Below, in pieces: positions 11,678 to 43,941 of a stretch of DNA of 44,940 bases. Made by a program: the position numbers and the translations under genes. Source of the stretch: Candidatus Cloacimonadota bacterium (GTDB taxonomy: Bacteria; Cloacimonadota; Cloacimonadia; Cloacimonadales; Cloacimonadaceae). The stretch is taken from contig JAKQWO010000081.1 of assembly GCA_029561955.1 (NCBI GenBank), positions 1 through 44,940 on the forward strand. Reading direction: 5' to 3'. The notes under the pieces were generated by a model. The model had not been told where the DNA came from. It saw only the letters and a list, made by a program, of their open reading frames with translations, and searched no databases. How positions within the stretch are numbered: position 1 is the first letter of the stretch; every line of letters starts with the position of its first letter.

Positions 11678-11830
11678 ATGTTTCAACTGGACGCAAACAC
11701 GATGGAAAACTTCCTCTGGGCCTTGTATGTCTTGGTGCAAGGCATGGGAGGGGTGTTCCTGTTTATGGGTGTCTTTTACCTGTTGATCTGGACTTTGGAG
11801 AAAATCTTTAAACAAAAAGCACGACCATGA
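11678..11830 (+). CDS. Very short OadG-like Na+-pump decarboxylase gamma subunit
   Basis: A 50-codon gene with AAAGGA eight bases ahead of the ATG. The product is one transmembrane helix with the OadG motif (QGMGGVFLFMGVFYLLIWTLEKIF) and a short basic tail KQKARP. In the family, the gamma subunit anchors the carboxyltransferase alpha subunit and binds biotin protein and Zn through a longer C-terminal tail. That tail is missing here; usual members are about 80 residues or more. Its stop overlaps the porU start (ATGA). An oadB gene lies 6 kb downstream in the same run, which supports the assignment. No alpha or biotin-carrier gene is in the window. A generic small membrane protein is the alternative. 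Confidence 0.72.
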   Translation: MFQLDANTMENFLWALYVLVQGMGGVFLFMGVFYLLIWTLEKIFKQKARP

Positions 11831-14800
11831 AAAAGCTATATACCTTGATGATCCTCTTGCTGGTTGCCCTTTCGCTGCCGGCTGCCGTAACTGTCCTTTC
11901 CTCTGATGGTTATCAGATTCAGGTGGAGTTTGCCCTGGGTGATTATACCATTAAGGAGATGGATGGCTTTGTCAGATTCAATGCTGATAAGATGATGTAT
12001 CCGCATCTTCCGGGAGCACCGGAGCTGCCTTTTGAAGAGTTTAAGATTGCACTGCCTCCCTCAGGCAATATCGTGTGGAGCTTCACCATCCTCGAAGAGG
12101 AGCGTGTGTCCCTGAACCAGAGAGTGTTGCCCATACCTCATGTTTCAGCGCAAGAAAGCGGTATGAGCCAATACCACTTCTTGGTGGATGAAGACCTCTA
12201 TGCAGGTTCCCGGGGCTCATATATCACGGAGCTGGAGCCGGATATCTTTCGGGGCTACAGCTTTACTTCCTTGAGGGTGAATCCCTTCCAATATGATGGA
12301 CAGCAGAGTGTTAACATCCTCAAACGTGCTGTCATCAGCGTCAAGGTCACCGGTGATGTTTCCTATAAATCTGCAGCGGCACAAGATGACCTGAGTGATC
12401 TCTTTTTGGATGCTGTGATCAACCCCTCGCAAGCCAGATACTGGCAACAGCATTTCAGATCCAGCATCAACTATGCGCCCTTTTCCAAGGCAGATTATTG
12501 GCTGAAGATCGAGGTGGACAAGCATGGTATGCAGCAACTTGGCAGACAAAACCTCAGCTCGCTTCCTCTGGATGATGTTGATCCCCGCACGATCAGGGTC
12601 TTTACCACGGGCGGTGCGATTAACCCATACACCGTGAGGTCTGCCGGGCCAGAGTTTAAAGAAATCCCCATCAAGGTGATGGGTGAAGAAGATGGGCACT
12701 TTGATGCCTCAGACAAGGTTATCTTCTACGGCGAAAACCGAGACGGATTTGATAAAACTGAGAAGTTGAACATCAAAACTGTCCACAATCCTTACAGCGC
12801 AAATGGTGTTTATTGGCTCACTTTTGGTGGTGACTTTTCCACTCCACCTCTGAGGATACAAATGCAGGATTCGCAAAGTGCGTATGACACCTCAATTAGC
12901 ACCCACAAAACCAGCGCTCGCTTTGAGAATGAGACCTATCGCGTCGATCCCTTTAGCTTTGAATGGTACAGTTCCAAGCTCTTCGGCACACAAACAGCAG
13001 ATTACCGCTTCTCTCTTGATCTAAAGGATGTAGATATAGACGGTGCCAACAATCTTACGCTGACCCTGCGCCATGAGTCAGTGGCGAGATATGACACTCT
13101 CAGCCATAAAATAAGGATCTGGGTAAACGATGAAGAAATTCCGCCTCCCAGCGTGGGCTATTTTAGCTGGGCGGGTGCATCATATTATACTCTGACCAAA
13201 AACGGAGTAAACCTGCGCGAGGGTGAAAACCAAGTGCGCATCCGTGTGTTGAGAACAAAGACAGTAAACCTCTTTCTGGACTTCATCCATATCAATTATC
13301 AGCAACAGCTCAAGAAGGGTGCGGGACAGTTCATCATCAACGCACCGGATAGTGTGGCAACCATCAATGTAGCCTATCATATGCAGACAGGTAGCTCAGG
13401 TATAGAGATTTATCGCATCGGCTCCTTTGCTGATGTGCAGCAGGTGCCTTGGCAGAGTGGTGGTGGAGCAAATTGGTTTGTCTCATCCAGCAACCACAAG
13501 ACGAGGTTTGTGCTCACTCAAGCCAGCGAATACCACAGCCCTGCTTCGGTAACCTTAGTTGATACCAAAGACCTCACTTTGGATACTTCTCAAGTAGATC
13601 ATATCATCATCTCTCCGGGAGAGTTTCTGGAGCAAGCCCCCACCTTGGCGTCCATGTATCAGGAGTTTTTCGGGCTCAACGTCAGGATTGTTGATCAGGC
13701 GGATATCTTCAACCAGTTCAACGGAGGACATCCTGATCCCTATGCCATACGTCAATACTTGCGCTATGCTTACAAAAACTTCTCCACACCCAAGCTTCAG
13801 GGTGTGACCCTGTTGGGCATAGGCACCATGGATTGGCGCAACAAATCCCGCATCTCCACTCCCAAAAACAAGATGATGGTCTATCTGGAAGCCCAAACTA
13901 CATCCGATGATTTCTATGTCATGATGGATTCCAGCAGCTATCCCGAATTGATCATCGGCCGCTATCCCGTTCGTACCACAGCAGAGCTCAATACAATGCT
14001 TTCCAATTATCGTGCTTATGTGAGCGAGCCTACACCCGGCTGGTGGCGCAATTCCATGGTCTTCTTGGCAGATGATCTATACAATGGCAGCGCCCCGGGT
14101 GCCGAATCTTATCATACACAGCATATGGAAAGGACTTCCAACAGAATGCACAAGAGCGTTAGAGTAAGGAAGATCTTTGCTTGGGAATATGACTATGATG
14201 AATTTCAAAACAAACCCGCTGCCAGAGACGACATGCTGAGCGCCGTCAATGATGAAGGAGTGCTTGTGTGGTATTATGTAGGTCACGGTAGCTATGATTC
14301 CTTGGGTTCGGAAGACTATTTCAATGGCGCTACAGATATGGGTAGGCTCCGTAATAACGGCAAACTGCCCTTCTTTATCGCTGCTTCCTGCACTGTGTCA
14401 CAATTTGATCACTGGGGCTTTGATAGCTTGGGCGACAAGCTCGTTTTATTTGATAACTACGGCTGCATCGCCACTTACGGTGCCACCCGCAGGAGTGGTG
14501 GCGATGCAAATTCTACCTTGATGGAATTGCTGTTTGCGGAGATGATTGATAAACGCCATCCCTTGGGTAAGAGCATTATGGCGTCCAAGCTCCGTTCTTC
14601 CAGTGATGCCAACGATCACTATTATGTGCTAATGGGAGACCCCACCCTCAGGATCAATACTCCCGTCAGAGATAGCCTGCTGAGCGTGGATGGCAGCACC
14701 ACTTCAGCGGTATTGCGTTCACGTCAACAACCTCAAATTGAAGGCTCCTTTGGAGCTTTTACGGGTAACGGCACAGGCAGTTTACGCCTTTTTGATAGCG

Positions 14801-15669
14801 GTAGAAGCTATTCCTTGGGCAGTGTCTCCGTCAGTCAACCGGGCGGTATGCTCTTCAAGGGTGATGTATCAGTGACTAATGGCAGCTATCAAGGCAGCTT
14901 CATCGTTCCAGATGATATCACCAATGGCAACACTGGTTCCATCATGTGCTATGTCTGGGATGATGCAACAAAGCAGGATTATATAAACTATTTTTATCCC
15001 GTCAATACGAGGGACAGTGCCGTTGCCGTGGATAACGACGGGCCACCCAGGATAGAGCTCTTTTTGGGCACCATGGATTTTAGGGCTGGAGACGAAGTCC
15101 CTACCTCCACCACGCTGATAGCCAAGATTTCAGATGGGAACGGCATCAACATTACCGGCAGCGCAGGGCACCACATTTTCTTAGTGATTGATGATGCTGC
15201 TCAACCTATCACCGTCACGCAGTATTTCGACTACAACAAGGATTCCTGCACAGAAGGCATCCTGCGTTATCCGCTTCCCAAGCTATCTGAAGGGCCCCAT
15301 ACCGTGCAGGTGATCGCTTTTGACAACTTCAACCTGCCCTCGGTCGCCAACACTCACTTTGTCGCCAAACAGAGCTCCGAGCTCTCCATCCAGAGGCTGC
15401 TGCCCTACCCCAATCCCATGCAGGATGAGGGCTATCTTACTTTTGTCCTCAGCGAAGAAGCTTCTTTGGACATCGGCATCTACACCGTCACCGGCAAGCG
15501 AGTCAAACGCATCAAGACCTTGGGAAGAGAGGGCTTTAACCAGATTCCCATTGATGCCAAAGACAACAACGGAAACCGCCTGGCAAACAACACCTACTTC
15601 ATAAAAATCAAAGCTAAAGCCGCAACCAAGAGCACAGAAGCCACCGAGCGGCTGGTAATATACAAATAG
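11827..15669 (+). CDS. porU: PorU-like type IX secretion C25 cysteine peptidase (sortase)
   Basis: A 1280-residue gingipain-family protein. In T9SS the PorU sortase removes the C-terminal tail of exported cargo and links it to lipopolysaccharide at the cell surface. A signal peptide (residues 1-20) is followed by a long N-terminal beta-rich region with SADYWLKI-type sequence (here KADYWLKIEVDKHGM, near 220). The C25 catalytic domain spans about 600-940. The catalytic dyad is His820 in YYVGHGSYD and Cys855 in IAASCTVSQFDHW. ELIIGRYPVRT and YYVLMGDPTLRI are further family marks. The last 90 residues form a FlgD-like tail (YPNPMQDEGYLTF to TERLVIYK), as PorU has. It is coupled to the OadG-like gene by ATGA overlap. 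Confidence 0.88.
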   Translation: MKKLYTLMILLLVALSLPAAVTVLSSDGYQIQVEFALGDYTIKEMDGFVRFNADKMMYPHLPGAPELPFEEFKIALPPSGNIVWSFTILEEERVSLNQRVLPIPHVSAQESGMSQYHFLVDEDLYAGSRGSYITELEPDIFRGYSFTSLRVNPFQYDGQQSVNILKRAVISVKVTGDVSYKSAAAQDDLSDLFLDAVINPSQARYWQQHFRSSINYAPFSKADYWLKIEVDKHGMQQLGRQNLSSLPLDDVDPRTIRVFTTGGAINPYTVRSAGPEFKEIPIKVMGEEDGHFDASDKVIFYGENRDGFDKTEKLNIKTVHNPYSANGVYWLTFGGDFSTPPLRIQMQDSQSAYDTSISTHKTSARFENETYRVDPFSFEWYSSKLFGTQTADYRFSLDLKDVDIDGANNLTLTLRHESVARYDTLSHKIRIWVNDEEIPPPSVGYFSWAGASYYTLTKNGVNLREGENQVRIRVLRTKTVNLFLDFIHINYQQQLKKGAGQFIINAPDSVATINVAYHMQTGSSGIEIYRIGSFADVQQVPWQSGGGANWFVSSSNHKTRFVLTQASEYHSPASVTLVDTKDLTLDTSQVDHIIISPGEFLEQAPTLASMYQEFFGLNVRIVDQADIFNQFNGGHPDPYAIRQYLRYAYKNFSTPKLQGVTLLGIGTMDWRNKSRISTPKNKMMVYLEAQTTSDDFYVMMDSSSYPELIIGRYPVRTTAELNTMLSNYRAYVSEPTPGWWRNSMVFLADDLYNGSAPGAESYHTQHMERTSNRMHKSVRVRKIFAWEYDYDEFQNKPAARDDMLSAVNDEGVLVWYYVGHGSYDSLGSEDYFNGATDMGRLRNNGKLPFFIAASCTVSQFDHWGFDSLGDKLVLFDNYGCIATYGATRRSGGDANSTLMELLFAEMIDKRHPLGKSIMASKLRSSSDANDHYYVLMGDPTLRINTPVRDSLLSVDGSTTSAVLRSRQQPQIEGSFGAFTGNGTGSLRLFDSGRSYSLGSVSVSQPGGMLFKGDVSVTNGSYQGSFIVPDDITNGNTGSIMCYVWDDATKQDYINYFYPVNTRDSAVAVDNDGPPRIELFLGTMDFRAGDEVPTSTTLIAKISDGNGINITGSAGHHIFLVIDDAAQPITVTQYFDYNKDSCTEGILRYPLPKLSEGPHTVQVIAFDNFNLPSVANTHFVAKQSSELSIQRLLPYPNPMQDEGYLTFVLSEEASLDIGIYTVTGKRVKRIKTLGREGFNQIPIDAKDNNGNRLANNTYFIKIKAKAATKSTEATERLVIYK

Positions 15670-20364: not shown

Positions 20365-20722
20365 GCTCTTGCCATCCATTACATCTCACTCAATCTTCTC
20401 CCCAAAACACCGCTTCCCATCTACATCTTGGCCGCTACTCGCAACTTTTGGCTCCACCTAAGGCACTCGCATCTATGCAAATTCGCCAGCGCTCGCAACT
20501 CACAACTTCCAGCTCGTGTGCCTATCCCTCTATAATATACTCTGACGATGTTGCTCCGGTGACGAAAAAACCGAAAATCCAAGCTCGTAACCGCTTGCTA
20601 ATGCTATGGATATGAAAGCGGTGAAATATTGTCTCTTTCTTTGCCCCAGTCAAGCACCTGAAATCCAGCTATAGAAAAAGGCTTTTCCTCGCACCTCATT
20701 TTTCCCCCCTCCTCACTCGCTT

Positions 20723-20813
20723 CTTCCTTACTTAGCCGCAGGGCGATGCCGTGCAGATACTCGGGTTTTTCCCGAGAGGCACCGAGTAATCACCGGGCGG
20801 CTAAGCAAGGAAG
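20723..20813. repeat. 91-bp palindromic intergenic element, copy B (inverted)
   Basis: The same length and ends as the copies at 3336-3426 and 37687-37777, in opposite orientation. Terminal repeats are CTTCCTTACTTA and TAAGCAAGGAAG. The core hairpin CTCGGG-TTTTT-CCCGAG and the alternative TACTCGG/CCGAGTA pairing are intact. Confidence 0.85.
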
Positions 20814-20819
20814 GAGTAG

Positions 20820-20939
20820 GGTCGCTCGCCGGAGCGACCAAGAAAAATGCAGCCGGCTCATCCCGAACCGCCCCAGTACGGTCGCTCGCCGAAGCGACCA
20901 TCAAAATTGTAGCCGGCTCATCCTGAACCGCCGCTTGCT
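20820..20939. repeat. 60-bp tandem duplicate containing hairpin repeats
   Basis: Two direct units of exactly 60 bp (20820-20879, 20880-20939), each beginning with a hairpin: GGTCGCTCGCCGGAGCGACC (8-bp stem, 4-nt loop) and GGTCGCTCGCCGAAGCGACC (7-bp stem, 6-nt loop). Both share AGCCGGCTCATCC.GAACCGCC. The reverse complement of this block, more degenerate, forms the 3195-3330 stretch of region A. Confidence 0.82.
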
Positions 20940-21042
20940 TCCCAAAAAAGAAACATACTAACCCACATTACCATCACTCGCTTCCCCAAACCCAATCCCC
21001 AAAACCAGTGCAGCAACCAGCCTCCCTTCCAGCCCCAAATCG

Positions 21043-21082
21043 CCACAGCGGCTTCTTAGGATTTCCCAAGAGACCGCTGTGG
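21043..21082. terminator. Strong hairpin after the paralogue array, possible bidirectional terminator
   Basis: CCACAGCGG (21043-21051) pairs perfectly with CCGCTGTGG (21074-21082), with CTTCTT/AAGAGA partly extending the stem. It lies 43 nt past the stop of the last minus-strand paralogue and between convergent genes. There is no good T-run on either side, so intrinsic termination is uncertain. Confidence 0.4.
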
Positions 21083-21125
21083 ATATTTGTTGATGCTTCA
21101 GAGTTCTGAGCATCGGAAGTGTATT

Positions 21126-23945
21126 CTATTGCATGAGAAGCATCTTATGCGTGCTGCTCCTGCCGGCAGAGCTCAAGCGCACAAAAAAGACGCCTGAAGC
21201 CACACCTTTACCCCTGAAATCCTTACCATCCCACACCACCTGATGTTCACCTCTGGCTTTATGTTCCTTCACCAAGGTCTTTACCAGTTGGCCTTTGATG
21301 TTGTAGATATCCAGCTTTGCCATGCCATCGGTAGCGATCTGAAAACTGATCGTGGTGCTGGGGTTGAAAGGATTGGGGTAGTTTCCGATGATCTGAGCTT
21401 GATGGATTGGTGTTTGAAGAGCGTCGTCAGCAGGTGTGCTGCTATGAACAGTCTTTCCCCAAAGCCCGGTAATATTCGCCTTAACCCTTTGATCATACCA
21501 AGTGACGAAGGCAGTATTGGAGTATATAGCGATGCGTGGAAGCGATTGATCATTACGTTCATCGCAAAGCACTACGGGAGCGCCTTCTGTAGGCGTTCCA
21601 TCTGCAACTATACGTCGGTAATAAATGTCAGAACTTTGAGCACCATTGTAAAAGGTGTCAAAAACGCAAATCGTGGAGCCGTCCTCGAAAGCGGCAAGAT
21701 CCACATTATTGGTATAATGGGATGCAGGGATAATGTTTACACCAGCTTCCGGGGTCAGAAAGTTACCCATCGTATCTACACTATGGTAGTTAAAGGCATC
21801 ATTGTTTAGTGCCAAAAACCTCAAACCATCGTGCTTAAAGATGGCATTTGTGATTCTGCCGCTCTCATAAAAGCTTATTCCAGACTCACCCCATAGCCTG
21901 TGACCTTGAGGGCTTATCCTTTGCAGGACTGCATTATCTGGAGATTCTGGAATGTCCGGGCTGAAGACCAGGCAGAGATCATCTCCCATCGCACCAGCTC
22001 CGATAAGCGGATTAAATCCTCTAACAGGCTGGGAACTCAAGAGGATGTAGTTTGAACCTCCACCAAAGTCGACTTGCCCCACACTATCAAACCTCAGGGC
22101 CTTGAGCATGGTAGGGCTGCCCGCTTCGGCCAGAAGTGAGTCACTAAAAATGAGGAATCCATTTTCAAAGCCCTGCAGGGTATACAAATGGTTGGGCACA
22201 TCTGCAAGGAGCAGCTCTCCTGCTTCATTCCACTGAGCTTGGCCGTTGACATATTTCTGACCCATAATCTTGTTTGAGTTTTCGGAGATGCTTTCCGTCC
22301 AAGCGAGGTAGACAACCTGGCCCACTATACCCATAAGCTGATCCTTAAGCGCAAATCCGACACCACCATCAGCAAAACAGAGGTTCCCATCATAGTCTAT
22401 CGCTTGCAGATAGGCTGTGCCTTGAGATTCTGTTTTGTACAAGAGATACAAGCTGTCATCGTTGCCCAACCTGGCTTGGATCAGTTCTGTGTCGACCAAA
22501 GGTTGCAGAGTGCGTCCATTGGGCTCCAAAAGCGGCTGCATGTTTCGATTAAACATTTGATAGTAAACGCCCACATTCTCCCAACCCGCTCGTGTATCGT
22601 GCCAAGTAATAATAAACTTGTCATCCAGTGTAAAGCACTGACTCTCTTTGCCTATTTCAGGAGCTTCATCGCAGGTTCCATTCAGTCTCTCTTCCAAAAT
22701 CAAGCCAGAGGAGCCATGAGCAAGCGTTCCATCAATACCGAGAGCTTGCAACTTGATTCTTTGCTTTGTGTCTTGTCTGATAAACCAAAGGAATATACCC
22801 GTATCATTGGATGGCAAAACAAACAACACATAATTATCATCGTCGGTTATAAGCTTGCTTTCAGGGAAACTTCTGACGCCGGAAGCATCAAAAATCTGAG
22901 CCCTGCGTCCGGAAGTCACCATGACTTTTCCGCCTGAGAGTTCACTTATCTTTGCATGCCCATGTGGCGAGTAATTTCCTCCGGAATTCCAAAGTGGCAC
23001 CAAATCAGGAGAAAGCATATGAAGGAAACGTCCCGAATTGCGGCCATAGTGCGATGTGTAGGCCACTCTGCCATCACTTAAGAGCATAATGTCACCTATC
23101 GGGTGGTTGTAAGTAAGATTCTGATTCAAAGTGGCCTGTCCGTTTGCTCCCACTTTATTGATTTCTGTGTTTTCCCCAATGACTTTATAGACCAAATACT
23201 CACCATTTACAGGGCCAGTAATTTCATAAGTCCAATCGGAGAAAAGATTGGGTGGGACAAAAGACTCATCATCGACAAGCTGACCCGTCTCTGAGAATCG
23301 CATCACAACGTCTCCGCCGCCGCTTAATAAACGGTAGTGCAACAAAAATCCATTCCCTGGATAGGGCAAAAGATCCACATGCAGGACAGGATCATCCATG
23401 CCAGTCAAGGCCAACCCTGCTTCAGCCCACGTTTTGCTGCCATTGGTGTCATAATTTTGTCCATAGATGGGGCCATAACCGCTTTGAAAAGCTATAGTAA
23501 CGCCACCGATACTATTAGCTATCACTCTGTAATCATAATATATCTCACTGGGGAGTGCCACTCCCTCGCTGTTCCATAGGCTTTGGCCATCTGGGCTCAC
23601 TTTTTGCATGTAAAAATGACACTCATCACCTATCTCTACCCAGACAACGACGAAGTTACCATCGCTGGTGGGAACCACATTTAGGAGCCTTTGGTCTTCT
23701 TCTTTGAAGGCCAAGGGTATGGCGTCAGTCGTGAGAGGGACGCCTGTTACACTGATTTTGTGACAATAGATGGTCTCAGATGAGTTGCCGTGAGCACTGA
23801 AGAAAACAAGCCAATTACCTTCTGCAGTTTGAAAGCCATACTTTTCCAAATACAGATAATCGGCTGGACGGATCACAAACTCATCTGCCATCAATAGGGC
23901 TGTTGTCCACAAAAGTAGACACATAATAAGGGATACTTTTCTCAT
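21126..23945 (-). CDS. T9SS-exported propeller-repeat protein, array member 1
   Basis: A 939-residue secreted protein, last in transcription order of four tandem paralogues. The signal peptide is MRKVSLIMCLLLWTTALLMA. About ten repeats of roughly 45 residues follow, each with a hydrophobic strand, a W or Y, then Q-h-x-x-x-G-x-x-h-W-x-x-x-G-h-x-h (for example YMQKVSPDGQSLWNSEGVAL, IYGQNYDTNGSKTW, LQRISPQGHRLWGESGISF). These look like beta-propeller blades. The C-terminus is a type A T9SS tail: GNYPNPFNPSTTISFQI, LDIYNIKGQLVKTL, SGVFFVRL. AGGAG lies six bases before the ATG, and its own TTGACA promoter-like signal lies at 24075-24103. No enzyme motif was recognised; ligand binding or adhesion is a guess. 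Confidence 0.8.
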   Translation of the reverse strand: MRKVSLIMCLLLWTTALLMADEFVIRPADYLYLEKYGFQTAEGNWLVFFSAHGNSSETIYCHKISVTGVPLTTDAIPLAFKEEDQRLLNVVPTSDGNFVVVWVEIGDECHFYMQKVSPDGQSLWNSEGVALPSEIYYDYRVIANSIGGVTIAFQSGYGPIYGQNYDTNGSKTWAEAGLALTGMDDPVLHVDLLPYPGNGFLLHYRLLSGGGDVVMRFSETGQLVDDESFVPPNLFSDWTYEITGPVNGEYLVYKVIGENTEINKVGANGQATLNQNLTYNHPIGDIMLLSDGRVAYTSHYGRNSGRFLHMLSPDLVPLWNSGGNYSPHGHAKISELSGGKVMVTSGRRAQIFDASGVRSFPESKLITDDDNYVLFVLPSNDTGIFLWFIRQDTKQRIKLQALGIDGTLAHGSSGLILEERLNGTCDEAPEIGKESQCFTLDDKFIITWHDTRAGWENVGVYYQMFNRNMQPLLEPNGRTLQPLVDTELIQARLGNDDSLYLLYKTESQGTAYLQAIDYDGNLCFADGGVGFALKDQLMGIVGQVVYLAWTESISENSNKIMGQKYVNGQAQWNEAGELLLADVPNHLYTLQGFENGFLIFSDSLLAEAGSPTMLKALRFDSVGQVDFGGGSNYILLSSQPVRGFNPLIGAGAMGDDLCLVFSPDIPESPDNAVLQRISPQGHRLWGESGISFYESGRITNAIFKHDGLRFLALNNDAFNYHSVDTMGNFLTPEAGVNIIPASHYTNNVDLAAFEDGSTICVFDTFYNGAQSSDIYYRRIVADGTPTEGAPVVLCDERNDQSLPRIAIYSNTAFVTWYDQRVKANITGLWGKTVHSSTPADDALQTPIHQAQIIGNYPNPFNPSTTISFQIATDGMAKLDIYNIKGQLVKTLVKEHKARGEHQVVWDGKDFRGKGVASGVFFVRLSSAGRSSTHKMLLMQ

Positions 23946-24074
23946 GTTACTCTCCTGATTTGATTGAGTCCCTAAATGTTGGTGGAAAATCCAACTTGTT
24001 ATTTTACGGTTAGTTGAGGATGTTTCTAAAATCCTCGCTCTCTACATCTATGCAAGGCCCGAGCGACCGATCAC

Positions 24075-24103
24075 ATTGTTTTTACAACGCTGTTATATGT
24101 CAA
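24075..24103 (-). promoter_or_regulatory. Promoter-like signal for array member 1
   Basis: Minus strand: TTGACA (24103-24098), a 17-nt spacer, AACAAT (24080-24075). It is 130 nt upstream of the start codon. The spacing matches the signal before array member 2 (TTGACA-N17-AAGAAT). Confidence 0.4.
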
Positions 24104-24187
24104 GTCAAATCTTTTTCGCCGCTGCTTGCAAACTGGCTTCTTAGGGTATAGGTGTGGATGACGTCGTAGTGCTTAAGTAAGGACTCC

Positions 24188-27025
24188 TTATTTCATCAAC
24201 AGCATCTTATGCACGCTGCTCTTACCGGCAGAGCTAAGGCGCACAAAAAAGACGCCTGAAGCTACACCTTTACCCCTAAAGTCCTTACCATCCCACACCG
24301 CTTGATGTTCACCCATAACTTTTGGTTCATTTACCAAGGTTTTCACAAACTGCCCCTTGATATTGTAGATGTCCAGCTTTGCCATGCTATCGGTGGCAAT
24401 CTGATAACTGATCGTGGTGGTAGGGTTGAAGGGGTTGGGGTAGTTTCCTACGATCTTAGCTTGCCGGATGGGTGGTGTCCAGGTGTTGCTATGAGCGGCC
24501 TTACCCCAAAGTCCGGTAACTCTACTGCCCGCTCTCTCATCCTTCCAAATAATGAAGGCCGTATTCTCGTATATGGCAATGATGGGGGAATGTTGATAAC
24601 ATCGTGCATCACAGAGCAACACAGGCGAGCTGTCTATCAGCGTTCCATCCGCATTCATACGAAGAGTATAGATATCGCCGGCGTGTCCGAATGCGTAGAT
24701 CGCGGTGCCATCCTCAAAAGCTGCGAAACTAATATCACCGTCACTATATCTCGCAGGAATGATGGATATTCCTCCCTCTGGAGTCAGAAGGTTGCCCATC
24801 GCATCCACGCTATGATATTTGTAGTCATCGTAGTTGTTTTGCGTCAATAAGCCCAGGCAGTCGCCAACTTTAGCTACAGTTATGATACGACCTTCATTAA
24901 AGCGTATTCCTGCCTCGCCCCAGAGTCTGTTGCCTTGAGGATCGATCTTCTGCAGGATATTGCTGTGGTTGAAGTCCGCATAAGATAGGCGAATCACCAG
25001 GTAGAGATCATCGCCCATCACCGCACTGCCACTGATTATAAGGGGATCGTCCTCACAGAAGGTTTCTGAGCTGAGGAGTATGCTGCCATACTCTCCAACG
25101 GTATTGATCAAACCGTCAGAGTCAAATACCGAAGCCCTGAGAAAGGTCAGTCTATCAGAGGTGCTGGAGGTTTCCCATTCCTTGTAGATGAGCAGGCCAT
25201 TTTGAAAGCCCATTAAAGTGAGATAAAAGTTGGGATTGCCAGTCCAAATCAGCTTTCCATTCTCACCCCACTGAGCGATACCGTTTACAAACTTTTGACC
25301 CATAATCATGTTTGGTTGACCATGGCCGGGGGCTTGGACCCAAAATAGATAGATAGTGTCGTCCACACAACCCATCATCTGTTTCCTTTCTACAATCTCA
25401 ATGCCATCATCCCCAAAGCAAAGATCGCCATGATAATCTATTGCCTGCAGATAGGCTTTTCTCAGATTCCCCCATCCATTACTATAGAACAGATACAATT
25501 TGTTGTCATTGCTTACTACCGCTTGCCGCAGATAGCTGTCTCTACTCAGGCGTCGCACGGCGCGTCCATTCGGCTCCAGAAGGGGCTGCATATATTGATT
25601 ATAGATCTGATAGTAAAGACTTCCATTTTGTCTGGCATCTTTCCAGATGCTCACAAACCTGTCGCCAAGAAGCATACAGTGATGATGATTCACTGCAACA
25701 CCTGGAATGCCGCAATCCAGCCTGTCTTCCAAAACTATGCCGGCGGGATCATGGACGAGTGAGCCATCCATATTCATCGCTTGCAATTTTATCCTTTGCT
25801 GCGTACTATCAATGCAACGCCACAGAAAAATAGCCCTGTCACTCGCAGCCAAGGTAAGCATCCGATCAATATCATCATTGGTAATCATCCGGGGTGTATC
25901 AAATTGAGCGACATCTGAAGCGTCATAGAGCTGGGCTTCACGATCCCAGCTTACCATGATTTTCCCATCCGGGTACTCGTATATTTTCCCATAATTAGAG
26001 CTGATTGCAAGCCGCTCTTCAATACTCCAGAGTTGCTCCAGAGTCGGAGATAACATATGAATCTCCATCACTGATGAGCTGATACCGGTGTGCATGTATG
26101 CTACCCTGCCATCACTTAAGAACTTGAGATCCATAAAGTGGAAATCAGAGCTGGGGCAAAGAATGTTTTGATCATACATCAGCTCTCCATTTGCGTCCAG
26201 TTTGTTGATTATCAAGTTGTAACCGCCAGTGACGTAGAGTATATACTCGCCATTCACAGGGCCGATTGCTTTTACTCTCGGTATCCTTCCAAAGAGATCG
26301 GCAAGGGCAGGACAAAAATCCTCAACCAGCACTCCCGCTTCTGTATAGCGCAACATCTTTCTTATATAGTTATAATCTTCGTCCATAATGAGAATATGCA
26401 CCAAAAAACCACCCTCAGGATGAGCCAGCACCCCCTCAAGCCTGAAGGTTCCTTCCAGGTCAAACAAGACCAGCTCCGCCTCACCCCAAAGTTTGTTGCC
26501 GCCTGAATCATAGCTTTGTGCATAGATGGGGCCTCCTCCTCGCTCCGCTTGAGAAAGCACCGTGAGACCACCCGCATCGTTGGCAGTCATACCGTATAAA
26601 GCAGTATCGGGGGAAAAATCATTCAGCTTGATTCCCTCGCTGGCCCAGAGGCTTTGTCCCTCAGGATTCACCTTTTGCACATACATATGGTAGCCATCAT
26701 AGCTGTAGTATTCTTTCCACAAAACAAAGAAATTGCCGTCACTGCTGGGAATCACGTCAAACAGCGACTGGTCCCGATCCTCAAGGTAGGATAGACACAT
26801 GGCTTCAGTAGTAAGAGGCACACCCGTAGAGCTGATTTTATGACAGTAGATACTCTCAGACAACCTGCTGTGATCATTAAAGAAAACCAGCCAATCTCCC
26901 TCTGCTGTTTGAAAGCTAAGATGATTAAAATAGAGGTAATCTGCCTGGCGGATCGCAAATTCCCCCGCCATCAAAAAAGAGGCTGTCCACAAAAGTAGAC
27001 ACACACCAAGGGCTACTCTTCTCAT
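24188..27025 (-). CDS. T9SS-exported propeller-repeat protein, array member 2
   Basis: A 945-residue paralogue. The open frame continues upstream to 27067, but the true start is the ATG at 27025: AAGGAG lies seven bases ahead, and the peptide then begins MRRVALGVCLLLWTASFLMA, a signal peptide matching its siblings. The same blade pattern follows (MYVQKVNPEGQSLWASEGIKL, IYAQSYDSGGNKLWGEAELVL, LQKIDPQGNRLWGEAGIRF). The T9SS tail has GNYPNPFNPTTTISYQI and SGVFFVRL. It is the most diverged member near the tail: the DDALQTP linker found in the other three is replaced, and EPKVMGEHQ replaces EHKARG.HQ. It stands alone between gaps of 242 and 314 nt and has its own promoter-like signal. Confidence 0.8.
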   Translation of the reverse strand: MRRVALGVCLLLWTASFLMAGEFAIRQADYLYFNHLSFQTAEGDWLVFFNDHSRLSESIYCHKISSTGVPLTTEAMCLSYLEDRDQSLFDVIPSSDGNFFVLWKEYYSYDGYHMYVQKVNPEGQSLWASEGIKLNDFSPDTALYGMTANDAGGLTVLSQAERGGGPIYAQSYDSGGNKLWGEAELVLFDLEGTFRLEGVLAHPEGGFLVHILIMDEDYNYIRKMLRYTEAGVLVEDFCPALADLFGRIPRVKAIGPVNGEYILYVTGGYNLIINKLDANGELMYDQNILCPSSDFHFMDLKFLSDGRVAYMHTGISSSVMEIHMLSPTLEQLWSIEERLAISSNYGKIYEYPDGKIMVSWDREAQLYDASDVAQFDTPRMITNDDIDRMLTLAASDRAIFLWRCIDSTQQRIKLQAMNMDGSLVHDPAGIVLEDRLDCGIPGVAVNHHHCMLLGDRFVSIWKDARQNGSLYYQIYNQYMQPLLEPNGRAVRRLSRDSYLRQAVVSNDNKLYLFYSNGWGNLRKAYLQAIDYHGDLCFGDDGIEIVERKQMMGCVDDTIYLFWVQAPGHGQPNMIMGQKFVNGIAQWGENGKLIWTGNPNFYLTLMGFQNGLLIYKEWETSSTSDRLTFLRASVFDSDGLINTVGEYGSILLSSETFCEDDPLIISGSAVMGDDLYLVIRLSYADFNHSNILQKIDPQGNRLWGEAGIRFNEGRIITVAKVGDCLGLLTQNNYDDYKYHSVDAMGNLLTPEGGISIIPARYSDGDISFAAFEDGTAIYAFGHAGDIYTLRMNADGTLIDSSPVLLCDARCYQHSPIIAIYENTAFIIWKDERAGSRVTGLWGKAAHSNTWTPPIRQAKIVGNYPNPFNPTTTISYQIATDSMAKLDIYNIKGQFVKTLVNEPKVMGEHQAVWDGKDFRGKGVASGVFFVRLSSAGKSSVHKMLLMK

Positions 27026-27339
27026 TTTTATCTCCTTGCCCGCTTGAGGCATTGGTGTTGGCAGCAAAAAGCCAACATACAGTTTATGGCTCTGTGAGAA
27101 GTTTTTAGCTTCTCGTTATTTACGTTTACACACAGCTCAGTAGCTTGGGCGCATTCTTGCCAAAATGCTGATAACTGTCAAGTTGTATTTTCACCAAAAC
27201 CCGAAAAATCTCGTAATCTACTGTCGACTGACGACTGACCACTTGGAAAGCGGCGCTTCAGCAACCGCCGTACAGGGTTGCTAAGGGCAATCGACCACAC
27301 AAACCACGTCTCCCCGAAACGGGCGTCAGCAACTAACAA
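27026..27339. other. Intergenic region between array members 3 and 2
   Basis: 314 nt with the ribosome site and promoter-like box of member 2 and a hairpin AGCAACC/GGTTGCT (27260-27282) that resembles the dispersed hairpin repeats (it also contains CCGCCGTAC). That hairpin lies 58 nt past the stop of member 3 and could end its transcript, but no T-run follows. No gene seen. Confidence 0.6.
27153..27181 (-). promoter_or_regulatory. Promoter-like signal for array member 2
   Basis: Minus strand: TTGACA (27181-27176), a 17-nt spacer, AAGAAT (27158-27153), 128 nt ahead of the start codon. Nearly the same box, spacing and distance as before member 1. Confidence 0.4.
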
Positions 27340-30210
27340 CTATTTCATCAACACCATCTTATGCACGCTACTCTTACCGGCAGAGCTAAGACGCACAAAA
27401 AAGACGCCTGAAGCTACACCTTTACCCCTGAAATCCTTACCATCCCACACCGCTTGATGTTTACCTCTGGCTTTATGTTCCTTCACCAAGGTTTTTACCA
27501 ATTGCCCCTTGATGTTGTAAACTTCCAGCTTTGCCATGCCTTCGGTAGCGATGTGATAGCTGATCGTGGTGCTGGGATTGAAGGGGTTGGGATAGTTGCC
27601 GATGATCTGAGCTTGCTGGATAGGTGTTTGCAGGGCGTCGTCAACAGGTGTGCTGCTCTGCACCGTGTTGCCCCAGAGTCCCACAATGTCTCTTGCTGCC
27701 CTTTGATCCATCCAGGTGACAAAGGCCGTATTGGAGTAGGTGGCGATGCGGGGTTGCGTTTGGGCATTACGTGCATCACAAAGCACCACAGGAGCACTAT
27801 CCGTAGGCGTTCCATCTGCTTCCATGCGGCGGTAATAGACGTCAGAATCAAAACCTTTATAAAAGACAAAAGCGCAGATCATGGAGCCATCATCAAAGCT
27901 GGCAAGACTTAGCTGTCGCGGTTCATAGGCTGCAGGGATGATGTTAATTCCACCTTCCGGAGTCTGAAAGTTGCCTTCCATGTCCGCACTGTGGATGTTG
28001 TAGCCAGCACCGCTCTGCGTCAAAAATGTCAAGGCATCGTCCTTGACGAGGATGTTACTGATCTCACTTTCCATCACAAAGCTAATCCCAGACTCGCCCC
28101 AGAGTCTGTTACCCCAAGTGCCTATCTTTTGCATGATGTAATCTCTTGAAGTCTCCGGATTTGCCAAGCGGAAGATAATGCAGAGGTCTTCTCCCATCGT
28201 GCCGGTGCCAACAAGCGTGTTTGTCTGGCTGACGTCTTCCGAGCTCAGGAAAATGCTGTTCTGACCTCCAACCCCAACTATTTGACCATAAGAGTCAAAT
28301 AGCAAGGCCTTGAGGTGGGTGGAGCTTTCTCCCGAATATGGGCTATAGTGATCGCTATATATGAGAAAGCCATTTTCAAAACCCAACAAAGTATATTGAT
28401 GGTTGGGCACACTGGCTAAAAGCAGCTCTCCATGTTGTCCCCACTGAGCCTGACCGTTCAAATACTTCTGACCCATAATCTTGTATGGGTTGCTCACGCT
28501 GGGTTCAGTCCAAAACAGATAGACGACATTGCCTACACAGCCCATCATCAGGTTTTTGTTGACAAACTGCAGTCCGCTATCACCAAAACACAGATTGCCC
28601 TGATAATCAATCGCTTGGAGGATGACGGTGTTCACGCCCAGGTCGTTAAACAGGATATACAGCTTATTATCATCGCTTACCACACATTGTACCATGCTCA
28701 GAGCGTTATCACCCAGGGGTTGGAGAGGGCGGCCATCGGGCTCCAAAAGAGGCTGCATATTCTGATCAAAAAGCTGATAATAGATGCCTGATTTAAGGAA
28801 AGAATACTCATCAATGCTGGATGCTTCAGTGCGTTTTTCCAGCCAGATGCTCAAAAATCTGTTTCCCAAGCTAAAACATTGATGCTTGCCCCTAGAAAGG
28901 CCACCATCACAGACTCCAGCCAACCTGTCTTCCAAAACCATACCAGCGGGAGCATGAGCGAGTGTTCCGTCTGTATGCAAAATCTGCAGCTTGATCATTT
29001 GCAGTCTGTTTCGGATATCACGCCACAGAAAGATGCCCCTGTCGCCAGTAGGCAGGACACGCATAGCCTTTGGATGGAGATACAACTCGTCTGTTACAGC
29101 CCGACTCTGTGCGAAAAGTTTGGCACCCGTAGTATCAAAAAACTGGGCATAAGGCTCCACTGTGAGCAAGATTTTCCCATCCGGACACTCGTTCACCAGC
29201 ATTTTGCCGTCAGAGGGATACTGCTCGGCAGCACTCCAAAGTAGTTCCAAATCAGGAGATACCATATTAAGGGTGTATGTCACAGGGTATCCGTCTGTCA
29301 GCACATAGGCCACTCTGCCATCGCTCAAAAGCCTAATCTCGTTAAAGCTCTTATGCTGAAGAAAACACACCAAATTCTGAGCCAGTACAGCTTCTCCGTT
29401 TGCTCCTGCTTTATTGATTCTGAGAGTATCTACATCTACCGTGTAGAGCAAATACTCGCCATTTACCGGCCCGATGATGTCAGCCAGTCTCCTTTCAAAG
29501 AGGTTGAATGCCGACATAAAGTCATCGTCGACAAGCATACCCGTACCTGAAAATCGCAGCACTTTGTATGACGTCTCCGCTCTGATGTTAATATGCACCA
29601 AAAAGCCTCCACCAGGGTAGGATGATACGTTTTTCATCTCCACCATATCATCCAGGTCTACCAAGGCCAATCCGGCTTCACCCCATGTTTTACTGCCGGA
29701 TGAGTCATAGTTTTGCCCATAGATGGGGTTTGACCAATAATCTTGATAAACCACCGTAATACCACCGATATCGTTGGCAAGCACCCTGCAAGACTTGTCA
29801 GTATAGGTGTTACTCGCGAGTCGAACACCTTCGCTGTCCCAAAGGCATTCACAATCTGGCGTCAATTTTTGCATATAGGTATAGCCAGAAGCGGCAAACT
29901 CCTTCCAGATAACGATGAAATTGCCATCGTTGGTAGGGATCACATCCAGTAGAGTTTGGTCTGTCTCTTTGTATGACAAAAGTATAGCTTCGTTGGTGAG
30001 AAGCTCTCCTGCTGCACTGAGTTTATGGCAATAGATACTCCCAGACAATGTGCTGTGATCGGTAAAGAAAACCAGCCAATCTCCAGCCGCTGTTTGGAAG
30101 CTAAACTCTGTTAAAGTCAGCTCATTTGCCTGACGGATGACAAATTCATCCGCCACTAAAAAGGTGGCTGTGCACAAAATTAGACATAACAGGAGGGCGA
30201 TTCTTCTCAT
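27340..30210 (-). CDS. T9SS-exported propeller-repeat protein, array member 3
   Basis: A 956-residue paralogue, the longest of the four, with a signal peptide MRRIALLLCLILCTATFLVA and AAGGAG ahead of the ATG. Blades follow the family pattern (YMQKLTPDCECLWDSEGVRL, IYGQNYDSSGSKTWGEAGLAL, IMGQKYLNGQAQWGQHGELLL). A short insert after WLEKRTEASSIDEYSF accounts for the extra length. The T9SS tail has GNYPNPFNPSTTISYHI, LEVYNIKGQLVKTL and SGVFFVRL. It begins only 14 nt after member 4, so members 4 and 3 are very probably one transcript. Function unknown. Confidence 0.8.
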   Translation of the reverse strand: MRRIALLLCLILCTATFLVADEFVIRQANELTLTEFSFQTAAGDWLVFFTDHSTLSGSIYCHKLSAAGELLTNEAILLSYKETDQTLLDVIPTNDGNFIVIWKEFAASGYTYMQKLTPDCECLWDSEGVRLASNTYTDKSCRVLANDIGGITVVYQDYWSNPIYGQNYDSSGSKTWGEAGLALVDLDDMVEMKNVSSYPGGGFLVHINIRAETSYKVLRFSGTGMLVDDDFMSAFNLFERRLADIIGPVNGEYLLYTVDVDTLRINKAGANGEAVLAQNLVCFLQHKSFNEIRLLSDGRVAYVLTDGYPVTYTLNMVSPDLELLWSAAEQYPSDGKMLVNECPDGKILLTVEPYAQFFDTTGAKLFAQSRAVTDELYLHPKAMRVLPTGDRGIFLWRDIRNRLQMIKLQILHTDGTLAHAPAGMVLEDRLAGVCDGGLSRGKHQCFSLGNRFLSIWLEKRTEASSIDEYSFLKSGIYYQLFDQNMQPLLEPDGRPLQPLGDNALSMVQCVVSDDNKLYILFNDLGVNTVILQAIDYQGNLCFGDSGLQFVNKNLMMGCVGNVVYLFWTEPSVSNPYKIMGQKYLNGQAQWGQHGELLLASVPNHQYTLLGFENGFLIYSDHYSPYSGESSTHLKALLFDSYGQIVGVGGQNSIFLSSEDVSQTNTLVGTGTMGEDLCIIFRLANPETSRDYIMQKIGTWGNRLWGESGISFVMESEISNILVKDDALTFLTQSGAGYNIHSADMEGNFQTPEGGINIIPAAYEPRQLSLASFDDGSMICAFVFYKGFDSDVYYRRMEADGTPTDSAPVVLCDARNAQTQPRIATYSNTAFVTWMDQRAARDIVGLWGNTVQSSTPVDDALQTPIQQAQIIGNYPNPFNPSTTISYHIATEGMAKLEVYNIKGQLVKTLVKEHKARGKHQAVWDGKDFRGKGVASGVFFVRLSSAGKSSVHKMVLMK

Positions 30211-30224
30211 TTTGCTCTCCTTAT

Positions 30225-33056
30225 CTATTTCTTGAGCAGCATTTTATGCGTGCTGCTCTTACCGGCAGAACTGAGGCGCACAAAAAAGACGCCTGAAGCG
30301 ACACCTTTACCCCTGAAATCCTTTCCATCCCACACCGCTTGATGTTTACCTCTGGCTTTATGTTCCTTCACCAGGGTCTTTACCAACTGTCCCTTGATGT
30401 TGTAAACTTCCAGCTTTGCCATGCCCTCGACAGCGATGTTGTAGCTAATAGTGGTAGAGGGGTTGAAGGGATTGGGATAGTTGCTGATGATCTGAGCTTG
30501 ATGGATAGGTGTTTGCAGGGCGTCGTCAACAGGTGTGCTGCTCTGCACCGTGTTGCCCCAAAGGCCAGTAACTTCTTCACCTGCCCTTTCGTCTATCCAA
30601 GTGATGAGCGCTGTATTGGAATATGTGGCGATGCGGGGCTGAGATTGGGCATTACGTGCATTACAAAGCACCACAGGAGCACTATCCGTAGGCGTTCCAT
30701 CGGCATTCATGCGCCGGTAATAGACGTCAGAATCAATAGCACCATCAGTGAAAGCGCAGATCATGGAGCCGTCGTCGAAGGCGGCAAAATCTACCTCTTT
30801 GGGTGCATAGATTGCTGGGATGATATTGATTCCAGCTTCCGGGGTCTGAAAGTTGCCCAAGGCGTCTACACTATGATAGGAGTATCCATCATCATCTTGT
30901 GCTAAAAAACACAAAGCATCACTCTTGACGACGGTGTTTTTGATGACTTGACCACCTCCAAAGTTTATCCCAGACGCTCCCCAGAGCCAGTGACCTTGAG
31001 GGCTGACCTTCTGCAGGATGTAGCTGGTTGTGGATTCCTGACTGTTCCGGCGGACGATCAGGCAGAGATCATCGCCCATCTTACCCATGCCATAGAGGGA
31101 ATATCCGGGGCTGATTGTTTCGGAGCACAAGATGATGGAATTGTCGCCTCCAACGGAGGTTATCAGCCCATAAACGTCAAACATCAAGGCTTTGAGATGG
31201 GCATTGCCTTCACCCGTAGAGGAGCTGTATTGGTCACTATAAACAAGCAGGCCATTTTCAAAGCCCAACAAGGTGTACTGATGGTTGGTCACACTGCCCA
31301 AAAGTTGCTCTCCATGTTGATTCCACTGGGCTATACCGTTCACATATTTTTGGCCCATAATCCTGCTTGAGCTACCGTCACTGGAGCCCGTCCAAAACAA
31401 GTAGATAACGTGGTCTACAATACCCATAATCTGGTTTCTGAGCCCAAACTCAATTCCGCCTTCACCAAAGCATAGGCTGCCATAATAATCTATCGCTTGC
31501 AGATAATCTCTGCCGTTGGATGCGACTCTGTATAACAGATACAACCTGTTATCGTTGCCCAATATGGCTTGTCTCAGTTCCATAATTCCATCCGCAGAGG
31601 GTCGGAGCGGTCGGCCATTGGGTTCCAAGAGAGGCTGCATATTTTGATCAAGCAGTTGGTAGTAAATCCCTCCCTTGTTCAAACCTGCTCGTGTATCATA
31701 CCAAATGCTCACAAACCTATTGTCCAAGGCAAAGCAACGACTCGCCTTACCTCCACTCTCATTTCCACAGATGCCTACTAACCTTTCCTCCAAGATCAAG
31801 CCTGTGGGAGCATGAGTAAGGCTTCCATCCATGCTCAATGCCTGCAATTTGAGCACTTGCTCTGTATTCTGTTTACAGCTCCACAGGAATATACCACTGT
31901 CTTCGGTAGAAAAAACATGGAAGTCAATCATATTATCTGTAGTTATAGGCTGGCTTTGGGAGAGAAGCTTGGCGCCGGAAGTGTCAAAAAACTGAACGAC
32001 ACTACCGACAGTCACCATGATTGTCCCACCCGAAAATTCGTCTATCTCAGCATAATTGTAGTATCCAAAAATCTCCCCAACATTCCAAAGTGGTTCCAAA
32101 GAAGGAGACAGCATATAAAGACGATCCGACAGAGTTCCAACACCAGCCATTAAGTAGGCTACTCTTCCATTGCTCAAAAGCTTAATGCCCTTTAGGGTGC
32201 CATTGAAAGATATGTTCTGAGCCAATACGGGCTGCCCATCCACTCCTACTTTATTGATCTGTATGTTATTGTCGAAGATTCTGTAGACTAGATACTCGCC
32301 ATTTTCGGGGCCAACTATTGCAGTAAAGTAATTTGCAAATAGGTCTGTGGGTACGATGGACTGGTTGCTGACGAGCATTCCCGCATCGGAAAACCTTAGC
32401 ACCTCATATCTGTTGTTGACCTCCGGGTCTATGTAGAGATGCAACAGAAAGCCACCTCCAGGATAAGCTGCCATGCCTTTGAGCTCTACCAAATCATCCA
32501 TTTCCACCAAGGTTAATCCAGCTTCACCCCAGAGCTTATTGCCTTCATTGTCAAAGTTTTGCCCATAGATGGGATTGTCCCAGCTATCTTGATAAACCAC
32601 CGTTACACCACCGATGGCGTTGGGGAGAACCTTGTGACGCGTAGCATTGCAGAATTGATCAAAGAGAACCACGCCTCCGTCAGCCCAGAGACACTGTCCC
32701 TCCGGTGTAACTTTTTGGATGCAGTAATCGTTATTGTTGCTGCGCTCCAGCCAGATAATGACGAAATTACCATCGCTGGTGGGGATCACGTTTATCAGCG
32801 TTTGGCCTGTATCCTTGTGCGACAAAGGTATAGCTTCCGTAGTGATAAGCACACCGGTAGAGCTGATTCTATAAAAGTAGATGCTCTCGGTTAAAGTGTC
32901 GCAATTACTGAAGAAGACAAGCTGCTCACCACCCGAAGTTTCAAAATCAAACTTTTGCAAAACCAGACGATATGCTGGGCGGATGGCAAACTCATCTGCC
33001 ATCATAGAAGTGACTGTCCACAAAAGTAGACACGCAATAAGGGCAATTCGTCTCAC
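30225..33056 (-). CDS. T9SS-exported propeller-repeat protein, array member 4
   Basis: A 943-residue paralogue and first gene of the array. It starts at GTG 33056, preceded by TGGAG; the peptide MRRIALIACLLLWTVTSMMA matches its siblings, which supports the GTG. Blades include CIQKVTPEGQCLWADGGVVL, IYGQNFDNEGNKLWGEAGLTL and IMGQKYVNGIAQWNQHGEQLL. The T9SS tail has SNYPNPFNPSTTISYNI and LEVYNIKGQLVKTL. The tail and the preceding 'DSAPVVLC.ARNAQ.QPRIATYSNTA' region are almost the same as in member 3, while the middle is much more diverged. A TTGCTG-N17-TTTATA promoter lies upstream. Confidence 0.8.
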   Translation of the reverse strand: MRRIALIACLLLWTVTSMMADEFAIRPAYRLVLQKFDFETSGGEQLVFFSNCDTLTESIYFYRISSTGVLITTEAIPLSHKDTGQTLINVIPTSDGNFVIIWLERSNNNDYCIQKVTPEGQCLWADGGVVLFDQFCNATRHKVLPNAIGGVTVVYQDSWDNPIYGQNFDNEGNKLWGEAGLTLVEMDDLVELKGMAAYPGGGFLLHLYIDPEVNNRYEVLRFSDAGMLVSNQSIVPTDLFANYFTAIVGPENGEYLVYRIFDNNIQINKVGVDGQPVLAQNISFNGTLKGIKLLSNGRVAYLMAGVGTLSDRLYMLSPSLEPLWNVGEIFGYYNYAEIDEFSGGTIMVTVGSVVQFFDTSGAKLLSQSQPITTDNMIDFHVFSTEDSGIFLWSCKQNTEQVLKLQALSMDGSLTHAPTGLILEERLVGICGNESGGKASRCFALDNRFVSIWYDTRAGLNKGGIYYQLLDQNMQPLLEPNGRPLRPSADGIMELRQAILGNDNRLYLLYRVASNGRDYLQAIDYYGSLCFGEGGIEFGLRNQIMGIVDHVIYLFWTGSSDGSSSRIMGQKYVNGIAQWNQHGEQLLGSVTNHQYTLLGFENGLLVYSDQYSSSTGEGNAHLKALMFDVYGLITSVGGDNSIILCSETISPGYSLYGMGKMGDDLCLIVRRNSQESTTSYILQKVSPQGHWLWGASGINFGGGQVIKNTVVKSDALCFLAQDDDGYSYHSVDALGNFQTPEAGINIIPAIYAPKEVDFAAFDDGSMICAFTDGAIDSDVYYRRMNADGTPTDSAPVVLCNARNAQSQPRIATYSNTALITWIDERAGEEVTGLWGNTVQSSTPVDDALQTPIHQAQIISNYPNPFNPSTTISYNIAVEGMAKLEVYNIKGQLVKTLVKEHKARGKHQAVWDGKDFRGKGVASGVFFVRLSSAGKSSTHKMLLKK

Positions 33057-33085
33057 TTGTAATCTCCATACCTATTTGTCTGAAA

Positions 33086-33114
33086 TATAAAGCAATATTC
33101 ATTCCCGTCAGCAA
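33086..33114 (-). promoter_or_regulatory. Promoter-like signal for array members 4 and 3
   Basis: Minus strand: TTGCTG (33114-33109), a 17-nt spacer, TTTATA (33091-33086). It ends 29 nt before the GTG start of member 4, leaving a short leader with the ribosome site. A better -10 match than most in this window. Confidence 0.45.
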
Positions 33115-33183
33115 ACAAAATGTGAGGGATTGCCCCAAAACACCTGTAAATATCAATAAAAAGCTGGAATTTGCTTTTTTAGC

Positions 33184-33212
33184 TTGACATCAAAGCCATT
33201 TCCAGACACATG
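33184..33212 (+). promoter_or_regulatory. TTGACA promoter-like signal for the amidase gene
   Basis: TTGACA (33184-33189), a 17-nt spacer, CACATG (33207-33212). The first in-frame ATG (33210) lies inside the predicted -10, so translation probably begins at ATG 33222 or later, with a very short leader. The -10 match itself is weak. Confidence 0.35.
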
Positions 33213-38400: not shown

Positions 38401-39537
38401 TCAGATGTGCTGTTGAGCTCCCACAGGCAAAGTGATGGTAAAGGTGCTTCCTTTTCCCAGTTTGGATTCCACTTCTATGTTTCCGCCCAGGTCTTTCAAG
38501 GCTCTTTTCGCCAGAACCAGCCCCATTCCGGAGCCGTTCTCATTGTTGGTGCCGCTGCGGAAGTAGTCGTTTTTCAGGGAAAATAGATTTTGGATTTTCG
38601 AGCTGGGGATCCCCACTCCATCGTCGCTCACGCTAAACTTGAGCTGCTCATCCTTCACCGTAAGATTTATCCTCACCTCCCCGCCGGGATGGGAGTATTT
38701 GATGGCGTTGCTGAGCACTACGCCCACGAGGAGAGATAGTACATCCACATCCGAATGGATCACCGCATCGGGCGGGCAATCCAGTTTAACCGTGAGCTTT
38801 TTGCTCTGCAAAAGTGGTCTGTAATGCTGTCTCAAATCTGAGATCAGGGCGTCTAAACGGATGAGTCCGGTGGTGGGATTGGCCATTTGCCGCTCGAATT
38901 TTGCCCATTTGTAGATTTCTCCCAGCATCAGGTTCATTCTATAGGATGAATTCTTGATTTGGGTGAGATAGTCCACCAACTCTTCTTTGCTGAAGCTGTC
39001 GATGTTTTGAGTCAAAAAGTTGCTCAGCGAGATGAAAGAGAGGACGGGGTCCTGCAGGTCGTGCAGAACAAAGTTGAGGAACCTGTCTTTCATCAGATTG
39101 AGATGTTCCAATTCCTCAATGCTCGCTTCCAGGCGCTTCTCCAGTTTGCGGGCACAGGAGATGTCCATGATCACGCCATGCAAAGAAGTGGTCTTGTCTT
39201 CGGGGTTTGGTATAGCTATGCCTTGTTCCCAGACCCAGCGGATGCTGCCATCCTTGTGCCTAATGCGGTAGGTGATTTGGAAGCCGGTTTGATTCTCTAT
39301 ACTTCGGTTCATGGTCTCTCTCGCCATGGCTCTATCTTCCGGCAGGATAAGCTTTTCATAGCCATCCATATCACCGTCGATAAGCTCCTGAGGCTCATAA
39401 CCGGTCACCTTTTTGCTTCCCTTGGAGACATATAGCAGGGTCAAAACATTGTCGTTGAGGCAATGATAGACCATGCCTGGCAGATTGCCCATCAGGTGGT
39501 CTAACATGTCGGGTTTGAGTCTTCTAAAATCTTCCAT
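38401..39537 (-). CDS. PAS-domain sensor histidine kinase
   Basis: A soluble-looking sensor kinase of 378 residues with no transmembrane segment. A PAS domain (about 15-125: VSKGSKKVTGYEPQELI, TYRIRHKDGSIRWVWEQGIA) is followed by a short coiled linker. The HisKA-like box is NFVLHDLQDPVLSF with phospho-acceptor His159. An HATPase domain comes last: N box VLSNAIKYSHPGG, G1 DDGVGIPSSKI, G2 GSGMGLVLAKRALKDLGG, and GSTFTITLP. I chose ATG 39537; the frame is open to TTG 39552, but GAGG there is only two bases from the TTG. The gene starts 37 nt after the endonuclease stop on the same strand and may share its transcript. No response regulator is in the window. Confidence 0.85.
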   Translation of the reverse strand: MEDFRRLKPDMLDHLMGNLPGMVYHCLNDNVLTLLYVSKGSKKVTGYEPQELIDGDMDGYEKLILPEDRAMARETMNRSIENQTGFQITYRIRHKDGSIRWVWEQGIAIPNPEDKTTSLHGVIMDISCARKLEKRLEASIEELEHLNLMKDRFLNFVLHDLQDPVLSFISLSNFLTQNIDSFSKEELVDYLTQIKNSSYRMNLMLGEIYKWAKFERQMANPTTGLIRLDALISDLRQHYRPLLQSKKLTVKLDCPPDAVIHSDVDVLSLLVGVVLSNAIKYSHPGGEVRINLTVKDEQLKFSVSDDGVGIPSSKIQNLFSLKNDYFRSGTNNENGSGMGLVLAKRALKDLGGNIEVESKLGKGSTFTITLPVGAQQHI

Positions 39538-39574
39538 AATAATACCTGTCAAGTCCTCTTAAATACTTATGTTA

Positions 39575-43723: not shown

Positions 43724-43941
43724 CGGTTCTCCTATATGATCAATCAAAAAAACGATTTAGGACCCCCATCTGATGAAGCTGGGATTTAGTCAAATGATTT
43801 CTTCTTGATGTTCGAGAGAGTGGGGATGAGGGCTTAGGTGCGGGTAGACACGAAGGGTAAGGGGTGTGTGTTATGGAAGATAATTATCTACACTATTGGT
43901 GATGCTTTGTCGGATAGAGTGGGTAAATTTGTAAGTAGTTC

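Follow-up and report, generated by a model that had tools for sequence, protein, structure and literature searches.

Beta-propeller proteins normally bind through their entry face. In PorZ of Porphyromonas gingivalis, one of the closest systems described so far, ligand binding on this face has been proposed and the second propeller has its last blade completed by a strand from the N-terminus, while BT4663 binds disaccharides on its propeller entry surfaces (PMC5121618). A review counts the Cloacimonadota among the phyla possibly having a T9SS (PMC11285876).

We analyzed a 44,940-nt stretch of DNA from a Candidatus Cloacimonadota bacterium (hereafter the window), which belongs to a genome assembly of 2.1 Mb in 81 contigs; the public assemblies closest to this genome are of Cloacimonadota. 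Four consecutive paralogues lie on the minus strand at 21126-33056 and encode proteins of 939, 945, 956 and 943 residues, in each of which a signal peptide (recognized by eye) precedes ~820 core residues and a tail of 85. The sequence-only reading from which we started was correct in coordinates, strand and sizes, but its label "very large" is relative, as other tail-bearing frames of the genome reach 2,385 residues. Paralogue 1 (21126..23945, 939 aa) carries the signal peptide, a 16-blade core and the T9SS tail. Paralogue 2 (24188..27025), the most divergent of the four, has 945 residues when started at the ATG at 27025; a longer reading frame from the TTG at 27067 was judged unnecessary. Paralogue 3 spans 27340..30210 (956 aa), and paralogue 4 spans 30225..33056 (943 aa, GTG start). 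The 14 nt noted as separating members 4 and 3 were confirmed, and the spacing persists in UBA3900, at 15 nt. Promoter-like boxes of the form TTGACA-17-AA(G/C)AAT, already pointed out for members 2 and 1, are present ~130 nt upstream of these genes on the minus strand as consensus matches only (24075..24103, TTGACA-17-AACAAT, for paralogue 1; 27153..27181, TTGACA-17-AAGAAT, for paralogue 2). The paralogues match one another over their full length far beyond chance (E = 0 to 1e-267), with 46-54% identity in the core and 82-94% in the tail.

Comparison with related genomes placed the array in a stretch between a radical-SAM gene and an amidase gene (20365..33209). In eight further genomes of the family these two genes are close together, the space between them empty, and in one congener (G004) the amidase gene adjoins a deaminase gene and the array is likewise absent. 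The same site holds four copies in the host and two in UBA3900 (L018). A third species (L017) has one or more there; its contig ends at the array site, so that the number is a lower bound. Among 125 Cloacimonadota genomes, in which members of this subfamily score >1000 bits and the next best protein 457, it was found in three, all congeners and all at the same site. Paralogue 3 and its UBA3900 counterpart (L018:9941-12814) are clear orthologues (support 100/100), showing that at least some copies predate the species split. Silent sites of the cores are near saturation among the paralogues and yet all four frames are open, indicating that each copy has been maintained. The orthologue and the near-saturated silent sites together rule out a recent tandem duplication. 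Other 16-blade homologues are paired side by side in two genomes (G001:C177:2738-6622 and G009:C50:16237-21362), showing that tandem duplication recurs in the family.

The 760-bp non-coding stretch 3' of the array contains short hairpin-like repeats at 20720-20960, GGTCGCTCGCCG-GAGCGACC and CAGCCGGCTCATCC..GAACCGCC, each present twice, which are possibly a dispersed repeat. Elsewhere in the window, 39575-43747 (minus strand) encodes a 1390-residue protein with lamin-tail, fibronectin-like and Endonuclease I domains, conserved in two congeners, which judging from these domains looks like a large secreted nuclease. A 936-residue T9SS-tailed protein at 144-2954 (minus strand) is unrelated to the array beyond its tail, and its body has no domain match. 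The UBA3900 homologue of the histidine kinase at 38401-39552 is split into two overlapping frames (L018:1176-2502), probably by a frameshift or an assembly error.

To describe the cores we aligned 28 family members, cut the alignment into repeats and compared the repeat profiles by hhalign. Fifteen full blades of 44-61 residues proved homologous to each other, with blade-versus-blade probabilities mostly of 80-99% (blades 4, 11 and 12 were less consistent), and a partial sixteenth blade resembled blades 8 and 9 (52-77%); the "about ten" repeats counted by eye were thus an undercount. AlphaFold2, run on paralogue 4 plus six relatives (seven sequences), gave an all-beta model of the whole protein (pLDDT 72.5, pTM 0.49), with a pTM that does not fix the placement of the propellers relative to each other. 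The first 412 residues of paralogue 4 alone gave a confident all-beta unit (pLDDT 82.8, pTM 0.81). Such a result would be expected if this half were a single closed propeller of eight blades; eight blades are then left for a second, and the models support two eight-bladed propellers in each array protein rather than a single large one, both of which had been envisaged beforehand. In paralogue 4, the blade repeats together with the half and whole models respectively place the N-terminal strand and propeller 1 (blades 1-8) at 31767..32996 and propeller 2 (blades 9-16) at 30543..31766, both on the minus strand. The mature N-terminus opens with an extra strand and blade 16 lacks its fourth strand; from this strand count only, the last blade may be closed from the N-terminus as in PorZ. 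A two-propeller plan is supported, with 8+8 blades where PorZ has 7+7.

Foldseek comparison of the whole model with the PDB returned two- and three-propeller proteins, PorZ being first (E 1.5e-13) and BT4663, a glycan sensor, third; the N-terminal half also matched propellers, including BT3686 and the ulvan lyase PL25. TM-scores to the solved structures were modest (0.2-0.55), supporting the fold class and no specific structural relative. At the level of models, then, the blades, AlphaFold2 and Foldseek agree on the circular array of four-stranded blades that characterizes beta-propellers, and the predicted fold of the array proteins is the one proposed from the sequence alone. In Pfam and NCBIfam searches of the four proteins only the tails matched; the cores matched nothing, WD40, Asp-box, VCBS and other named propeller families included, and Reg_prop repeats were not found. 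Searched against PDB sequences, the profile built from the seven sequences matched FlgD tails only, and our literature search found no account of this propeller family. Neither outcome that would have spoken against the sequence-only reading occurred: the predicted structure does resemble propellers, and the core is covered by no family of known character. A homologue on contig 22 of the host genome (L016:4759-7821; E 7.8e-39 to the array) belongs to a wider 16-blade family with matches in 58 of 61 related genomes. This family is unnamed, and no Pfam or NCBIfam model covers it outside the tail.

All four tails pass the model of the T9SS type A sorting domain (TIGR04183; 30.4-39.9 bits, cutoff 23). 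In paralogue 4 the sorting domain (FlgD_ig / Por_Secre_tail, from profile matches) lies at 30228..30482 and the signal peptide (residues 1-20, assigned by eye and conserved in all four proteins) at 32997..33056, both on the minus strand. About 90 tail-like matches occur across the host genome, which shows that the T9SS export route is heavily used in this bacterium. The window itself contains the gene of the T9SS sortase PorU at 11827..15669 on the plus strand (NF033707, 591 bits, cutoff 420; Peptidase_C25, 260 bits); a cysteinyl-tRNA synthetase gene comes after it, an order shared with UBA3900 (L018). SprA is encoded on contig 51 (475 bits summed, over the cutoff), and contig 39 encodes a member of the PorV family (222 bits, cutoff 90); a search for GldM matched nothing in the genome, but the control search likewise matched nothing. 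With these machinery genes and the sorting tails in one genome, the T9SS export assumed by the sequence-only reading gained support, and it is credible from the sequences that the array proteins are exported and attached to the cell surface by this route.

Their overall plan, two propellers plus a tail, is that of PorZ (PMC5121618), and porU lies ~5.5 kb from the array, so the proteins might instead be T9SS accessories that help PorU attach or process cargo and are not cargo themselves. We consider this highly improbable. The PorZ family model (NF052228) matches the array proteins in the tail only, with 24-31 bits against a cutoff of 260, whereas a better PorZ candidate (87.7 bits, below the cutoff) is found next to sprA on contig 51, which rules out PorZ identity for the array proteins. 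Absence of the array from nearly all relatives would also be odd for machinery, and since the flanking genes stand in the same order in relatives that lack the array, the nearness of PorU carries little weight and we dropped any functional meaning of it. The candidate gene 3' of sprA (contig 51, L102; 124-6411 and 6311-9019 for the two genes) bears Reg_prop propeller repeats and a T9SS tail, and these neighbours appear to be a T9SS core pair in Cloacimonadota.

The tails and cores of the array genes have different histories. In the core, paralogue 3 is nearer to its orthologue (66% amino acid identity) than to paralogue 4 (54%). At silent sites of the tail the order is reversed: pS is 0.29 between paralogues 3 and 4, 0.33 between 3 and 2, and 0.67 between paralogue 3 and its orthologue, a reversal backed by 1000 of 1000 bootstrap samples. 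Protein-level selection is not expected to act in this way on silent sites, and gene conversion between neighbouring genes is the simplest cause of the homogenised tails.

The cores, on the other hand, diverge mainly on one face. Following the description of PorZ (PMC5121618), we classed the loops from the strands of the model as entry loops (b-c and d-a) or exit loops (a-b and c-d). Among the four paralogues, the entry loops are 26% identical and the exit loops 63%, with strand and loop classes that depend on the model built from seven sequences; the direction is the same in 15 of 15 blades (blade 13 was omitted, its first strand being unclear in the model), and 5000 label shuffles never produced a difference of this size. 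Conservation in the array proteins is lowest in the entry loops and in the strands lining the shaft; between orthologues of the array the bias is weaker. The homologue on contig 22, which has 16 blades on the same plan and is a single-copy gene, served as the control. Its entry and exit loops are 58% and 60% identical over six species, 81% and 82% over the same three species as the array, and 59% and 60% when cut by its own blade motif. The bias in the array is therefore not general to the fold, and the divergence concentrated on one propeller face supports the earlier idea of diversified surface proteins.

This same pattern must be weighed against two other explanations. The copies might be redundant and their constraint relaxed, the entry face doing nothing specific and the proteins being surface filler or structural. 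The cores indeed evolve faster than their neighbours (67% identity for the paralogue 3 orthologues and 78-96% for neighbouring genes), and between paralogues 3 and 4 pN equals pS in the entry loops (both 0.49; exit-loop pN is 0.18), as under neutrality. Yet the four frames stayed intact while silent divergence approached saturation, the entry face is still constrained among orthologues (entry-loop dN/dS below 1, about 0.2-0.35), and in the single-copy homologue with this plan the two faces are under equal constraint. We thus regard relaxed constraint as unlikely, though it is the most serious rival, ahead of enzymes and PorZ-like machinery. As silent sites are saturated among the paralogues and dN/dS is below 1 in the orthologues, we make no claim of positive selection. 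Alternatively, the proteins might be secreted polysaccharide-active enzymes, propellers of the glycoside hydrolase or polysaccharide lyase type, whose substrate specificity has diverged; BT3686 and PL25 among the structural matches of the N-terminal half would fit, as would the cross-matches of the distant homologue on contig 22 to GH43 in three short stretches. Catalytic families, GH43 included, match none of the four array proteins in Pfam and NCBIfam, in line with the initial failure to recognise an enzymatic motif, and the usual position of an active site, the entry loops and shaft-lining strands, is where they are least conserved. An enzymatic role is accordingly improbable in our estimation.

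We favour, as the probable reading, that the array encodes secreted double-propeller surface-binding proteins with diversified entry faces and a shared export tail. This joins what was observed: the blade architecture, the propeller fold at the level of models, the T9SS tail together with the genes of the machinery, a site specific to the lineage, the bias towards the entry face and the silent-site homogenisation of the tails. Each protein, with two eight-bladed propellers and an Ig-like sorting domain, would cross the inner membrane with the help of its signal peptide, and the outer membrane through the T9SS (SprA/PorV), where PorU would recognise the tail and attach the protein to the cell surface, leaving the entry faces as binding surfaces on the cell exterior. 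Duplication may have produced a small repertoire whose members came to differ in their binding faces but retained the fold, the exit face and the export tail, the last partly via gene conversion among neighbours. Beyond secretion and anchoring, we infer binding at the entry face, with a glycan or other extracellular polymer or surface as the ligand. Of the roles suggested earlier, capture of ligands or adhesion would be plausible; nothing specific speaks for "sheath components". We can also imagine, as a speculative and rather unlikely extension, a compact diversity module in which gene conversion keeps the tail for export and anchoring alike among neighbouring genes and diversification falls mainly on the recognition face, yielding a repertoire for recognition of partners, phages or substrates in uncultured Cloacimonadota.

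Cloacimonadota are mostly uncultured and come from anaerobic digesters and anoxic waters, and to our knowledge little is known of what they display on their surface. The locus offers a candidate that can be put to the test: a set of T9SS propeller proteins specific to one lineage, in which one face is predicted to vary and for which the same genome provides a single-copy control of identical plan. It also points to the unnamed 16-blade family as a whole.

Compared with known systems, the array proteins resemble PorZ (PDB 5M11, PMC5121618) in having two propellers in the N-terminal part and a T9SS domain at the C-terminus, but their propellers have eight blades instead of seven, the sequence match is confined to the tail, and PorZ is single-copy machinery whereas the array is a tandem gene set. 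The sensor domain of the hybrid two-component system BT4663 (PDB 4A2M) also has a tandem propeller pair; unlike the array proteins, BT4663 contains Reg_prop repeats, is periplasmic and fused to a histidine kinase, and has a Y_Y_Y domain and no secretion tail. Nearest of all in blade pattern, length and tail is the Cloacimonadota 16-blade T9SS-tailed family represented by the homologue on contig 22. That gene lies apart from the array, is a conserved orthologue in single copy and has both faces equally conserved, whereas the array subfamily is divergent, expanded and, among the genomes searched, limited to one genus.
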